Positions 7,173 through 13,540 of a stretch of 64,000 nt of DNA are shown piece after piece. This DNA is from Bacteroidota bacterium (lineage in GTDB: Bacteria > Bacteroidota > Bacteroidia > NS11-12g > UBA955). The notes under the pieces were generated by a model, which was not told the origin of the DNA, did not search any database, and worked only from the letters and a program-made list of their open reading frames with translations. A program made the translations under genes and the position numbers. Location: the NCBI GenBank assembly GCA_018333525.1, contig JAGXTF010000077.1, forward strand, positions 1-64,000, written 5' to 3'. Within the stretch, counting starts at the first letter, position 1; every line of letters begins with the position of its first letter.

Positions 7173-9140
7173 ATGAAAAATAAACCTGAGCTTGACAAAC
7201 TTAAATTTCCATACAAACGAATTTTAGTATTTCCTGATAGGAATCTCCGCGCAACTGCACTTGAGATGGCAGCAATAGATACCAGAATTTTTCAAAGATT
7301 GCGATTTACTCGTCAGCTTGGTAATTCCTATGTTGCATTTCCCACAGCCGATCATTCCAGATTTTCACATTCACTTGGGGTTTGCTACTGGGCAGGTAAA
7401 ATTCTTTCAGCCCTAAAGGAAAACCATAATACACATGAAAATGAACCATTATTGCATCGATTAAACAAAGCTATAGCTGATTATTTGGCTGCACAGTGTG
7501 AAGTAGTTCCAGCCTATGTATTCAATAACGAATTATTTCTAGGAGTGAGCTGGTTTGAGCAGCTCGTGCGAATGTATGGATTATTACATGACATAACGCA
7601 TATTCCATATGGCCATACACTTGAGGATCAAGCTGGTTTGTTCGAGCGCCATGATGATGATTTTGTTAGACTCGGTAAAGTTTTTGACAAATTGAAAGAA
7701 GAGGTTCGAGGCAGCCAACATTTTGACGAATGCGGAGATCCAAAAATTCTAGAATCAATAATGATTGAATATATTAAATTGGTTGAACTTTTGTTTCTCG
7801 TTGGATATATTACAGATAAATCAAACACGTTATCAAAAATCAAGAATGATCAAGAACAACAAAAAAAGTGGGAAATTGAACGAAAAACTCTAACTGATCG
7901 TTGGGCAACAATTCAATCAACACTGCACGAACCACTTATTTTGACATATGACATAGTGAGTAATACAATTTGCGCTGATTTAATGGATTATACTCTGCGT
8001 GATACTCTTTTTGCAAGTATGCCTAAAAGCTTTGACAAGGCATTGTTGGTTTATATGAAAATTGTGCAGTACGACACCACCATATATGGTAATCAGACCA
8101 ATACAAACAAAATGTATAGATTAGGTGTCAGCGTAAGCAGAAAAAAAATACGGCATGATATAATAACCGCTATACTCGATCTCCTAAGAATAAGATATGA
8201 TCTTACCGAGAAGGTATATTATCACCATACCAAAGTAATTACGGATGCAATGTTGGAAAAAATAATTCGCTCCTTGCCCACAGCTACAAATACGATGGGC
8301 CTTTCGTTGGACGAAGTAAATGAAATTGCATTTACTACTGATCTAATTTATTCTAATTATTTAGGAGATGAAGGCTTTTTACGGGAATTAGAACATAGAC
8401 TATCTAAATTTCCCAGTCTACAACCATTGAAACTAATTTTGAATAAAATATTTACTCGGCGATTATACAAATCGGTATTTAGGACAAACTTTAACGCTAC
8501 ACTAAATGGTAAGGGTCGTCAAGCTCAGAACTCTTGCAATAATCCGAACGGTCGTTCCCAGATTGAATCTTTTATAATTACTACATTGCGAAATAAATAC
8601 GATGTTGAAATTGAAGACGGTGATTTGATAGTTTCATATCCCCCAAAAAAAATGCAAATGAAAATAGCAAAAGCCTTAATCGAATGGACAGATGGACAAA
8701 TTTATCCATTTGATGAACTTCCAATAGAAACTAACTACTCTAACGAAGTAGGTGTTCTGACTGATCGATATAAGTCTCTTTGGGCATTAAATATCTTTTT
8801 GAATCCTGATAAAATTCATTTGGTTAAACTCGTCGAATCAATCTGTGAAGATACTTTTCACATTAGAAATGAATATATACTAAATCAGTATTTATCTACA
8901 ACATATAGTGACTTTTATGCCTCAACAACCGTGATGCGTGAACTAAGTTTAGGTGCGATGTCCCGTGAATCGGAATTCATTAAATCAGAAGCAGCAAAAG
9001 GAAGTTCATATTTGAATGATGAAGTCCTTGAATCTGTAGCAGTTAAAGCATTGGAAATGGAAGTCGATAAACGGAAATCTAAAAAACCCAAAAAGGACAA
9101 TCCGAATAAAAATAATAATAGTAATGAATCCTTGCTATAA
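7173..9140 (+). CDS. HD-domain phosphohydrolase, SAMHD1/dNTPase-like
   Basis: The N-terminal half (about residues 35-300) carries the full metal-binding set of the HD superfamily: H66 in FSHSLGV, H139-D140 in LLHDITHIPYGH, and D269 in ICADLMDYTLRD. The stretch QRLRFTRQLGNSYVAFPTADHSRFSHSLG is close to that of SAMHD1-like and YdhJ-like nucleotide triphosphohydrolases. A C-terminal half of roughly 350 residues is not recognised and ends in a Lys/Asn-rich tail. The expected activity is hydrolysis of a (deoxy)nucleotide phosphate, but the substrate cannot be read from sequence. An M78-type protease gene begins 14 bp after its stop, so the two are probably co-transcribed. The gene is visibly more AT-rich than the housekeeping genes around the island, which suggests transfer. 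A role in phage defence is inferred only. Confidence 0.85.
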   Translation: MKNKPELDKLKFPYKRILVFPDRNLRATALEMAAIDTRIFQRLRFTRQLGNSYVAFPTADHSRFSHSLGVCYWAGKILSALKENHNTHENEPLLHRLNKAIADYLAAQCEVVPAYVFNNELFLGVSWFEQLVRMYGLLHDITHIPYGHTLEDQAGLFERHDDDFVRLGKVFDKLKEEVRGSQHFDECGDPKILESIMIEYIKLVELLFLVGYITDKSNTLSKIKNDQEQQKKWEIERKTLTDRWATIQSTLHEPLILTYDIVSNTICADLMDYTLRDTLFASMPKSFDKALLVYMKIVQYDTTIYGNQTNTNKMYRLGVSVSRKKIRHDIITAILDLLRIRYDLTEKVYYHHTKVITDAMLEKIIRSLPTATNTMGLSLDEVNEIAFTTDLIYSNYLGDEGFLRELEHRLSKFPSLQPLKLILNKIFTRRLYKSVFRTNFNATLNGKGRQAQNSCNNPNGRSQIESFIITTLRNKYDVEIEDGDLIVSYPPKKMQMKIAKALIEWTDGQIYPFDELPIETNYSNEVGVLTDRYKSLWALNIFLNPDKIHLVKLVESICEDTFHIRNEYILNQYLSTTYSDFYASTTVMRELSLGAMSRESEFIKSEAAKGSSYLNDEVLESVAVKALEMEVDKRKSKKPKKDNPNKNNNSNESLL

Positions 9141-9154
9141 ATAATGATATTCAA

Positions 9155-10048
9155 ATGACTGCGTTGTCGAATTTTGATACATATTTAAAAACCAAATTTA
9201 AGGTAAGTGAAACTCCGTTAATCATTGAAAATGCTATCTCATATATTGCAAATGGGACCCAACCGGATGAAACATCCAATATAAAATACATAGCAATCGA
9301 TAATTGGATAAAACAGATATTAGGATTTTGGGCAATTGAGCTAATAGAAGAGGATCTTGGAAATGCAAAATTCCATGGGAAGTTGGTGCCAAAGAGAAAT
9401 GGATTCAATCTTTTTCTCAATTCTAGTTTATTTCCTACTCAAAGACGCTTTGCATTAGCGCATGAACTAGGCCATTTAGTAAGTTTTGACACCACATTTG
9501 AATGGCCAAAATATGTTGTCAAACATTCTTGGAATGAAGAATTATTTTGTAATCAAGTCGCGCGTGGTATACTATTGCCAAAAATTATTTTTGACACTCT
9601 TAATATCAATCTACAAAATGTAGATAGTATAAATTATACATTATTTGCCCAAATTTGGAAGGAGTATTTAGTTTCACCATTACAGATTATTCGACGGCTA
9701 TATGATCTTTATATAAATAAAAATGTTTCCACTATAATTTGGAAGCACTCCAAAGATGATAATTGTTTACGAATTTTTGACTATTGCAAAAATAATAATT
9801 ACTTTATTCCATTAAGGAAAAGAAAAATACTGAATGACCTAATTCAACAAGAAGGAACTAATAATCTACCTCAAATCGCATTCAATTCAAATGGATTTAT
9901 TAAAGATTATGACTTAGTATCCTTTGGTTCTTTTTATAAAAAACGAATGATGACTTATGCCTTTCCCATCCATACAATCATGGATACATATATAGTGCAG
10001 ACAATATTTGATTCAGATGAAAATGGGGTTTTTGATGACTCAAAATAA
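9155..10048 (+). CDS. ImmA/IrrE-type (M78) metalloprotease
   Basis: The 297-residue protein has the gluzincin-like motif ALAHELGH (H103, E104, H107). A downstream acidic motif, NEELFCNQVARGILLP (about 127-142), is the usual third-ligand helix of ImmA/IrrE (COG2856) proteins. Members cleave or modulate DNA-binding regulators or act as the antitoxin-linked protease in mobile elements. No helix-turn-helix is evident here: the N-terminal 60 residues are not a recognisable XRE domain, and the C-terminal 130 residues are unassigned. It follows the HD gene by 14 bp on the same strand. A plausible job is to control the HD enzyme by proteolysis, which is inference. No signal peptide is present, so it should act in the cytoplasm. 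Confidence 0.85.
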   Translation: MTALSNFDTYLKTKFKVSETPLIIENAISYIANGTQPDETSNIKYIAIDNWIKQILGFWAIELIEEDLGNAKFHGKLVPKRNGFNLFLNSSLFPTQRRFALAHELGHLVSFDTTFEWPKYVVKHSWNEELFCNQVARGILLPKIIFDTLNINLQNVDSINYTLFAQIWKEYLVSPLQIIRRLYDLYINKNVSTIIWKHSKDDNCLRIFDYCKNNNYFIPLRKRKILNDLIQQEGTNNLPQIAFNSNGFIKDYDLVSFGSFYKKRMMTYAFPIHTIMDTYIVQTIFDSDENGVFDDSK

Positions 10049-10215: not shown

Positions 10216-10707
10216 TTAATGACGTTTTTTAAGCATTGAATCCGACAAGTAAACAGTATCGCGTATCACAATCTTTTGGGGCGTTACCTCGACTGATTCT
10301 GTGTTGTGTTTGTTTGATTCTTGAGGCACTTTTGGCGACAATATTTTTATACTTAATATTACGCTCACGATGATGGAGAATATTGCGGTAATTCCTCCCT
10401 TTATGACTTCCCACAATATTGGATGCATATCAGTCCAACTTGGTGGTTTATATGCCGGATTAACTACTATGTCTAAATCATTTGTGTTTTGCGTTCCAGG
10501 CTCCTTTAAATACTCTCCAGTGCCTACCAAAATCGCCGCGACTCTTTCGACAACCCGTGGATGTATCTTGCTTTCTATGCCTAGTATTTGCTTACATGCA
10601 TATTTTACGCTTGCCCTATGCGAATCTCTGACACCCCTTTTCAAGCTTTCCACAATAGCGTCAATTTGTTCACCGCTAATGTTATTCCAAGTTTTTACAT
10701 CACTCAT
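10216..10707 (-). CDS. Small single-TM protein of unknown function
   Basis: The 163-residue protein has a soluble N-terminal part (about 1-105) with a conserved-looking stretch GTGEYLKEPGTQNTNDLDI. One membrane helix follows (about 106-125, ITAIFSIIVSVILSIKIL), then a polar tail ending in KKRH. It is convergent with the HD/metalloprotease pair and lies 167 bp from it. The opposite strand has an open frame over the same bases, but its translation is low-complexity Leu/Ser/Cys and lacks a domain, so I take the minus strand as real. I do not recognise the family. Its place in a defence-type island makes a membrane effector or sensor conceivable, but nothing in the sequence proves it. Confidence 0.6.
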   Translation of the reverse strand: MSDVKTWNNISGEQIDAIVESLKRGVRDSHRASVKYACKQILGIESKIHPRVVERVAAILVGTGEYLKEPGTQNTNDLDIVVNPAYKPPSWTDMHPILWEVIKGGITAIFSIIVSVILSIKILSPKVPQESNKHNTESVEVTPQKIVIRDTVYLSDSMLKKRH

Positions 10708-11048: not shown

Positions 11049-12608
11049 ATGAAAGAAATGGACAAAATTATTTCTCCTCTGTCAAAAGAACCGCCATCTA
11101 GTTATGCAGAAAGGCTAGGCTTAGAATACACAAGCATTGTTAATCAACAACATAAAAAAGAATTTGGCCAATTTTTTACTCCAAAACAGGTGGCTGAGTT
11201 TATGGCAAACCTATCTGATATTCAAGAAAGTACAATTACATTGTTAGATCCAGGCTTTGGAGTAGGCATTTTGACATGTGCATTAGTTGAAAAATTTATA
11301 TTGAACCATGGTAAAAAGGCAAGAGTTGAAATAATTGCATATGAAACAGACTTTCAAATTTATCCATATGCAAATGCCTCAATTCAGTATTTAAAAAATT
11401 GGGTTGAATCCCAAGATGCTAACTTAAGCTATAAAATTAGTAGCAAAAACTTTATAACCGATAATGCCAACAAAACAAAATACAAGAAATTCTTTGATAT
11501 TGTAATATCTAACCCCCCATACTTTAAAATTCCAAAGGATGATGAATCCAATCTTGCAGCTTCATCAATTTTCGGAGTTCAGAATAATATATATTCATTA
11601 TTCATGGGCATTTCAACAGACCTACTCAAACCGAATGGAGAGCTTATTTTTATTACACCAAGGAGTTTTTCATCTGGTGGTTATTTTAAATCATTTAGAG
11701 AGTTCTTTTTTAATAAAGTGCAGCTTGAAAGAGTTCACTTGTTCATTTCAAGAAAAGATACATTTAATCGAGATAAAGTATTACAAGAAACTTTAATTAT
11801 TAAAGCAACAAAACAACAGATTAAAAATAAAAAGGTCATTATTTCAAGTTCAAATGGATTATCAGATTTAAACAAATGCGAAAATAGAGAATATCCGCAT
11901 GATCACTTAATTGATGTTGTATCAAATGAAAAAATACTCTATTTACCAACAAATGACCAAGAAGATGAGGTAATAAATATATTCAATAAATGGCATGACA
12001 ACCTAAATAGTCTAAATATCCATATCTCTACAGGCCCCGTCGTGGCCTTTAGGGCCTATAATAGTATTGTTTTAAATGAAATAAAGAAAGGTAACTTTTG
12101 TCCTCTATTATGGTTGCACAATGTAACTAAAATGCAAGTTTCTTGGCCAATAAACAGAGTTAACAAGGGACAATACATAGAAATTAACGATTTTACTAAA
12201 TCAAGTCTTATACCAAATAAGAATTATGTATTACTCCGCCGATTTTCTAGTAAAGACGATAAATCTAGATTAATCGCTGCACCCTATTATTCGGAATTGG
12301 ATTTTCCCTTATTAGGCGTTGAAAATAAACTAAACTATATTTATCGAAAGGGCGGAAAACTTTCTGAATTTGAGGTTACAGGGCTTGCGGCATTGCTCAA
12401 TAGCAGACATTTTGATACTTATTTTAGGATATTTAACGGAAATGTAAATGTTTCCGCTACGGAATTGAGAGAAATACCATTTCCGCCATTAGAAACAATA
12501 ATTGAAATTGGTAAGCAAATTATTATGGGTAAGGATTTTACCCCAGAAACTATTGGTACGATAGTCAATAGGTACTTTCAAATCGATTATAAATTGGAAT
12601 TATTATGA
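11049..12608 (+). CDS. Type II N6-adenine DNA methyltransferase (BsuBI/PstI partner)
   Basis: The 519-residue protein has the layout of gamma-class Eco57I-like methylases: motif X GQFFTPKQVAEFM (about 40-52), the SAM-binding motif I LDPGFGVG (66-73), and the catalytic motif IV SNPPYF (154-159). The C-terminal half should carry the target-recognition region. Motif I is DPGFGVG where many relatives have DPACGSG. The downstream gene overlaps its stop by 4 bp (ATGA) and encodes a BsuBI/PstI-family endonuclease, so this enzyme should protect the host at the same site. Known pairs of this family recognise CTGCAG, but the specificity here is unproven. An alternative ATG lies at 11058. The composition is AT-rich like the rest of the island. 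Confidence 0.92.
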   Translation: MKEMDKIISPLSKEPPSSYAERLGLEYTSIVNQQHKKEFGQFFTPKQVAEFMANLSDIQESTITLLDPGFGVGILTCALVEKFILNHGKKARVEIIAYETDFQIYPYANASIQYLKNWVESQDANLSYKISSKNFITDNANKTKYKKFFDIVISNPPYFKIPKDDESNLAASSIFGVQNNIYSLFMGISTDLLKPNGELIFITPRSFSSGGYFKSFREFFFNKVQLERVHLFISRKDTFNRDKVLQETLIIKATKQQIKNKKVIISSSNGLSDLNKCENREYPHDHLIDVVSNEKILYLPTNDQEDEVINIFNKWHDNLNSLNIHISTGPVVAFRAYNSIVLNEIKKGNFCPLLWLHNVTKMQVSWPINRVNKGQYIEINDFTKSSLIPNKNYVLLRRFSSKDDKSRLIAAPYYSELDFPLLGVENKLNYIYRKGGKLSEFEVTGLAALLNSRHFDTYFRIFNGNVNVSATELREIPFPPLETIIEIGKQIIMGKDFTPETIGTIVNRYFQIDYKLELL

Positions 12609-13540
12609 GTAAAATTGAAGACGCACAGAAAATATTAAAGTCATTGGGATTACCTAAAGAGCAACAAAATGAAATTGCTGCTTTTACATTATTAGCATTG
12701 GCTAGAATGGAGGCAGAGAATTCCTGGGCAGACGCAAAAAGAGAAAGTGTTGGTGTTTCTATAGGAATAATGGACTTTATTTCTGAGAAATATGGTCGGA
12801 CGTATAAACCTAATACCCGCGAAACGGTAAGAAGGCGAGTTTTACATCAATTTGAACAAGCTCGCATTGTGGACTATAATCCCGATGATCCCACCTTGCC
12901 AGTAAATAGCCCAAAGACACACTATGCCCTTACCATTCATGCACTGGAAGTTTTAAGAAACTTTGAAACTGAACATTTTGAAGAAAAAGCCTCAGAATTT
13001 CTAAAAAATCAAGGCAACCTTCAAAAAGAATATGCTAAAGCTCGAGAAATGCATATGGTTAAAGTTATACTTGGCAAAGGATTAGAATTAAAACTTTCAT
13101 CCGGTAAACACAATGAAGTATCAAAAGCATTCATTGAAGAGTTCGTTCCAAGGTTTGCGCATCACGGTATAGTAATATACTTGGGAGATACAGCTGAGAA
13201 AGATATTTATCTAGATGAAAAAGCATTTAAAAAGCTAAATATTTCTTTTGGAAAACATACAAAGCTTCCTGATATTATAATTTATGACCCATCTAGGAAT
13301 TGGTTATATTTAGTTGAAGTAGTTACATCACATGGCCCCGTATCGCCAAAAAGATATAAAGAATTGGCGAAAATTCTAGATAGCTGTACTTGTGGACTAA
13401 TTTATGTAACAGCCTTTGCAGACAGAAAGCAATACAAAAAGCATGCAGATGATATAGCCTGGGAAACCGAAGTATGGTTTGCAGATTCCCCCACACATAT
13501 GTTGCATTTCAATGGAGATAAATTTTTAGGTCCGAGATAA
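12605..13540 (+). CDS. Type II restriction endonuclease, BsuBI/PstI family
   Basis: The 311-residue product is close in length to R.PstI. Its C-terminal catalytic region carries a PD-(D/E)xK variant: LPDIIIYD (D223) followed by LVEVVTSHGPVSPKR (E238). This is the signature block of the BsuBI/PstI family. The N-terminal third (about 20-115) looks like a winged-helix DNA-binding domain, with TRETVRRRVL and a following beta-hairpin. It overlaps the methylase stop by 4 bp, so the two are translationally coupled with the methylase made first. No controller (C) protein gene is present upstream. Both reading frames are intact, so the system is probably functional. Confidence 0.93.
   Translation: MSKIEDAQKILKSLGLPKEQQNEIAAFTLLALARMEAENSWADAKRESVGVSIGIMDFISEKYGRTYKPNTRETVRRRVLHQFEQARIVDYNPDDPTLPVNSPKTHYALTIHALEVLRNFETEHFEEKASEFLKNQGNLQKEYAKAREMHMVKVILGKGLELKLSSGKHNEVSKAFIEEFVPRFAHHGIVIYLGDTAEKDIYLDEKAFKKLNISFGKHTKLPDIIIYDPSRNWLYLVEVVTSHGPVSPKRYKELAKILDSCTCGLIYVTAFADRKQYKKHADDIAWETEVWFADSPTHMLHFNGDKFLGPR

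Follow-up and report, generated by a model that had tools for sequence, protein, structure and literature searches.

SAMHD1 is a human virus-restricting enzyme. A SAMHD1-like defence enzyme, CloA of the Clover system, drains dGTP; this HD dNTPase is held by a dedicated partner, which restrains it so that toxicity is avoided (PMC12265719). The proteases PprI and CapP are activated by single-stranded DNA (ssDNA) and cleave HTH repressors, and proteases of the PprI type respond to DNA damage (PMC10904395).

The window, i.e., the whole stretch of 64,000 nucleotides analysed (Bacteroidota bacterium, contig JAGXTF010000077.1), carries an HD gene followed by an M78 protease gene. The features of this locus are the following:

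7173..9140, plus strand: HD phosphohydrolase gene (655 aa, intact ORF); SAMHD1-like, presumed effector
7587..7592, plus strand: HD dyad H139-D140 (pattern match at 7587, within HDITHIPYGHTL); invariant in the paired homologues
8805..9137, plus strand: HD C-terminal tail (residues 545-655); a feature specific to HDs paired with M78 and a candidate target of the protease
9141..9154, no strand: intergenic gap between the HD and M78 genes (14 bp)
9155..10048, plus strand: M78 (ImmA/IrrE-type) metalloprotease gene (297 aa, intact ORF); presumed sensor/regulator
9461..9475, plus strand: HELGH zinc motif, M78 residues 103-107; H103, E104 and H107 invariant in 15 homologues
9539..9541, plus strand: M78 E129, presumed third zinc ligand in the NEEL helix; invariant in 15 homologues
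11049..13540, plus strand: BsuBI/PstI-type restriction-modification (R-M) genes, context only (methylase 11049-12608, endonuclease 12605-13540)

The window HD protein has the HD fold, the metal ligands and the C-terminal lobe of SAMHD1 and shares with it the motifs QRLR..QLG, HxRFxHSxG, HDxxHxPF/YxH and ADxxDYxxRD. It differs from animal and fungal SAMHD1 by the lack of a SAM domain, by a tail of ~110 aa and by being encoded together with a protease. Clover (CloA dGTPase and CloB nucleotidyltransferase) is similar in that a candidate HD dNTPase is accompanied by a dedicated second gene; in the window, however, this gene encodes an M78 protease instead of a nucleotidyltransferase, and control would be proteolytic rather than exerted by a nucleotide signal. 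No nucleotidyltransferase was found among the adjacent genes scanned in the window. The HD superfamily and the idea of dNTP draining are also common to Dgt (TIGR01353, PADLOC dGTPase), but the window HD reaches only 19.8 bits against the curated cut-off of 152.35 for TIGR01353, and its PADLOC dGTPase match is weak (6e-5).

The protease resembles those of CapH/CapP (CBASS) and PprI(IrrE)/DdrO in its M78 domain, its weak PADLOC capP match (5e-10) and its PprI fold. In contrast to these systems, it adjoins an enzyme, and no match to an HTH repressor family (CapH-like) was found among the five proteins scanned between 7173 and 13540, which are those of the longer ORFs. An M78 domain beside a partner gene also occurs on plasmids together with DUF4411 (L041-L043), whereas the partner in the window is an HD enzyme and DUF4411 is absent. 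An HD-M78 system was found neither in PADLOC and NCBIfam nor in the literature searched (mostly freely readable papers), which agrees with the initial annotation, where no described system of these two parts was known. The parts are of known kinds, and their pairing is absent from PADLOC, NCBIfam and the papers found.

Gene pair and its surroundings

The two genes are intact, co-directional and 14 bp apart, as initially described. Their GC content is 34.8% (HD) and 30.4% (M78), and that of the R-M genes is 31.2% and 35.8%, against a mean of 39% for the ORFs of the window; since these values lie below the mean, the whole HD-M78-R-M block looks acquired. The R-M pair, located ~1 kb downstream of HD-M78, is matched by PADLOC MTase_II (6e-118) and REase_II (1e-110) and by Pfam BsuBI_PstI_RE (1e-60). 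Compared with relatives, synteny on the right side is kept from 15019 onward, and the left-flank gene lies on other contigs.

HD-M78 is separated from the R-M genes by a hypothetical gene on the minus strand (10216-10707) with a host-like GC content of 39.6% and a hydrophobic stretch, for which no family match was found.

HD protein

The HD protein matches Pfam HD (1e-4) and HD_assoc_2 (8e-5), and a profile built from the paired HDs finds SAMHD1 chains (E = 2e-44) and, together with them, the fungal homologue 9mr6 (1e-44 to 1e-47 for the two). The best Foldseek matches of its model (AlphaFold2 with the locus alignment; pLDDT 79, pTM 0.81) are SAMHD1 structures, which are covered over nearly the whole core (E = 1e-14, TM (target) 0.66-0.73). 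Overall identity to solved dNTPases is ~18%.

The window HD has all the metal ligands named in the initial annotation (H66, H139, D140, D269), each of which is invariant in 19 of 19 paired homologues and, alignment gaps aside, in the 73 solo ones tested. R63, H148, Y273 and D277 are also invariant in the alignment of the 19 paired homologues. On the basis of the profile alignment and of established knowledge of the SAMHD1 active site, we take these eight residues to correspond to its metal ligands and phosphate-side residues. Positions H143/H148, Y273 and R276-D277 are conserved as well. The conserved residues and the modelled fold suggest that the HD protein could act as a dNTPase.

Residues up to ~545 match the SAMHD1 core. 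Most of what had been described as a C-terminal extension of ~350 residues of unknown fold is therefore the SAMHD1-like C-terminal lobe, and what goes beyond it is limited to the last ~110 residues. This tail is poorly conserved, its pLDDT falls below 50 at residues 577-614 and 638-655, and no cleavage motif is visible in it.

A housekeeping dGTPase, the counter-reading named in the initial annotation, was rejected for this gene: a separate 420-aa HD gene is present elsewhere in the host genome, and solo relatives occupy other parts of the tree.

M78 protease

The M78 protein matches Pfam Peptidase_M78 (4e-8; 33.5 bits against a cut-off of 22), and both HELGH and the downstream NEEL helix reported earlier are found, at residues 103-107 and at the invariant E129, respectively. 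Its model (pLDDT 68) matches the fold of PprI/IrrE, an ssDNA-bound PprI entry included. PprI/IrrE uses a C-terminal GAF-like domain for ssDNA sensing; in the window M78 model, the C-terminal third is of low confidence, and pLDDT is below 50 in the last 60 residues. Structure prediction, suggested as a check at the outset, thus sets one model on the SAMHD1 core and the other on PprI/IrrE. With no HTH partner identified next to the M78 gene of the window, control is more likely to be post-translational.

Relatives and distribution of the pairing

In 107 other genomes of the same order, the window M78 protein (P0002) gave only two weak matches, and the protease was found in none; in a 395-genome sample of the phylum, the HD protein gave only partial matches. 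Single-protein searches of plasmids, phages and viral contigs with HD (P0001) and M78 (P0002) returned distant HD or M78 proteins and no paired relative; paired relatives were missed because the peptide patterns, which were chosen automatically, bypassed the conserved motif. A DNA pattern for HDIxxxP[FY]GHT retrieved one phage contig (L044/L046), and a wider hand-made DNA pattern, HD[IL]xxxP[FY]GHT, retrieved at least 118 stretches from genome contigs.

The phage contig encodes a full-length HD homologue (27-29% identity) with an M78 gene directly after it, and in L046 the pair lies amid phage genes, gpA terminase among them. None of the HD matches examined on plasmids (Phaeobacter, Klebsiella, Desulfosarcina, Vibrio, Rhizobium) has an M78 gene next to it. 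Plasmid M78 matches were rejected as relatives of the pair, as they belong to HTH-fused or DUF4411-linked families.

The HD protein of the phage contig (L046:7923-10058) and that of an acidobacterial locus (L143:1261-3588) are close relatives (800 bits), which suggests phage-borne transfer.

Co-occurrence, the check proposed in the initial annotation, was scored with profiles of the paired HD (A4) and M78 (A3) in 119 HD-match loci, the window included. Among these listed matches, which come from many phyla, HD and M78 genes adjoin each other in 19 of the 119 homologous loci, and the adjacency of the two genes is beyond chance. The spacing is within ~150 bp, except in L058 (699 bp), where the HD frame is broken; most homologous pairs abut or overlap, compared with the 14-bp gap in the window. 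The M78 gene lies downstream on the same strand in 15 pairs, upstream in two (one of them, L148, weak, E = 2e-4) and in convergent orientation in two. In the remaining HD stretches among the matches listed, some of which end near the HD gene, M78 was not found.

Besides the window and the phage contig, paired loci belong to Planctomycetota (3), Actinomycetota (4), Zixibacteria, Ignavibacteria, a deltaproteobacterium/Myxococcota, Verrucomicrobiota, Hyphomicrobiales, Gammaproteobacteria, Tistlia consotensis, Calditrichota, Solibacter and KSB1. Of 392 Planctomycetota genomes drawn independently, 66 contained an HD match; M78 was adjacent in only two of the 30 HD loci read, both already known (0 of 28 others). 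Among 299 Pseudomonadota genomes, the Tistlia pair alone reached the threshold (0 of 298 others). Pairs of this type are rare, and their occurrence is scattered.

Paired sub-family of HD proteins

The tree of 107 HD proteins places every paired row in one group of 31 (support 86, which is below the starred level), and the pairing label changes 6 times versus 17.5 in shuffles. Solo HDs, mostly of 410-460 aa and without M78, form phylum-coherent groups (Acidobacteriota, Bacillota, Latescibacterota, Heimdallarchaeota and others). The tail beyond position 545 has a median length of 102 residues in the 19 paired proteins versus 26 in the 73 solo ones (p = 4e-10), and N264 is present in 18/19 paired versus 3/73 solo HDs.

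In 15 of 15 loci, the paired HD gene is poorer in GC than its flanks (mean -6.5 points), against +1.0 for solo genes (n = 72; p = 1e-8), and paired HD genes for this reason look recently acquired. Taken together, restriction of the pairing to a sub-family and the acquired composition imply that paired HDs behave as mobile cargo would, and solo HDs as resident genes would. These observations support a single accessory, horizontally acquired module whose pairing is conserved across phyla.

Genomic neighbourhood

The 123 neighbours of paired loci were compared with 121 neighbours of 19 solo loci, a small comparison rather than a formal enrichment. The neighbours of paired loci include an Eco57I methylase and an XhoI-type endonuclease (L082), an oligonucleotide cyclase (L072; a CBASS-type 2TM effector match belongs to the same neighbour set), an OLD/AbiEii-like ATPase (L118) and four phage integrases, three of which are placed at L063, L118 and L148. 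The solo set is represented mainly by RecQ-like helicases matching DpdF, with single matches to other models; no integrase was found in the families shown for it (121 neighbours, 19 loci). Several paired loci (L058, L088, L102) have ordinary genes on both sides and no defence neighbour, which is a point against the anti-phage reading. The defence context, for which the initial annotation had pointed to the adjacent R-M system, now extends from the R-M genes of the window and L082 to CBASS at L072, the integrases and the phage contig.

Proposed function and alternatives

With moderate confidence, HD-M78 could be regarded as a mobile two-component anti-phage module, in which a SAMHD1-type dNTPase is controlled by a PprI/CapP-like protease. 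The M78 zinc protease would sense infection or DNA damage through a cue that is most likely ssDNA, by analogy with its characterized relatives, and this cue could be provided by phage replication intermediates or by damaged DNA. The protease would then cut the HD enzyme, probably in the pair-specific C-terminal tail, and thereby switch it, activation being more likely than inactivation. Once active, the putative SAMHD1-type dNTP triphosphohydrolase would drain dNTPs, and phage DNA replication would stop; the candidate pair could in this way protect the host against phages.

Direct post-translational control is the most economical option, because no HTH partner was identified in the window, the tail is pair-specific and adjacency is retained in different orientations. 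The full scheme, in which an ssDNA-activated M78 protease cuts the tail of a SAMHD1-like enzyme and frees dNTP destruction with no transcription factor or nucleotide signal in between, is put forward tentatively. If it is true, M78 proteases would gain an effector enzyme as a substrate in place of a repressor. The tail peculiar to the pair, the obvious choice of catalytic mutants and the availability of an isolate host (Tistlia consotensis) make the pair directly testable.

An antitoxin gene typically precedes the toxin gene, whereas the usual order here is HD and then M78, often with overlap. This order, as well as the persistence of the long-tailed HDs L126 and L157 without a visible M78 gene, which is unexpected for a toxin lacking its antitoxin, makes it rather doubtful that the HD protein is toxic by default, is restrained by M78 through binding or degradation and is freed when a phage shuts off the host. 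Such a toxin-antitoxin-like module would nevertheless be in line with the two-gene structure and its conserved adjacency in several orientations, with M78 genes adjoining partners in other candidate toxin/defence loci on plasmids and with the restraint of the toxic HD dNTPase of Clover by its dedicated partner (PMC12265719).

The pair could also serve the DNA-damage or stress response, if the protease senses ssDNA and tunes dNTP pools via the HD enzyme, defence being a side effect or absent. The damage response of PprI-type proteases (PMC10904395) and the location of the L078 pair (= L171:5196-12586) between ribonucleotide reductase and dCTP deaminase genes are compatible with this role. It is unlikely, however, as the foreign composition, the patchy distribution (0/298 other Pseudomonadota) and the copy on a phage contig suit mobile defence better.

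Hydrolysis of another nucleotide (a second messenger or a modified nucleotide) instead of dNTPs could be proposed, since HD enzymes are chemically diverse and identity to solved dNTPases is low. This is quite improbable: SAMHD1 dNTPases rank first in both the profile and the fold comparison, and conservation extends to the motifs that line the active site of SAMHD1. That two unrelated genes of mobile elements lie side by side by chance is hardly credible and was rejected on the basis of the census, for, although M78 genes are common on mobile elements and several of these genomes have more M78 matches elsewhere, the 19 adjacent cases among the matches listed span many phyla, a phage contig and three orientations, and fall in one HD sub-family with its own tail.

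HD proteins in other arrangements

Aside from the proposed two-component module, some members of the paired group may act without M78, because a few HDs that the tree places there have no visible M78 gene (L050, L134, L073, L135, L126 and L157). One planctomycetal genome (Planctomycetota FR_29) carries three long-tailed HD copies (L049, L124, L157) with no adjacent M78, and two of these appear frame-broken. In each of the two genomes, the planctomycetal solo HD gene (L050, L134; 526-556 aa) has a neighbour that looks MutL-like by eye, which suggests a vertically inherited role. In Amycolatopsis iheyensis, the family is represented by a 750-aa HD protein (L073:1533-3782), whose N-terminal stretch is Ser/Thr-kinase-like by eye; GC here is 12 points below the flanks, and this could be a kinase-gated version.

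On the Desulfosarcina (L034:5361-8232) and Rhizobium (L036:5409-8298) plasmids, a gene of ~135-142 aa is followed by an HD protein of 807-826 aa whose C-terminus resembles a nuclease by eye (ETDLII...VIENK); the two genes may form a further two-gene system.
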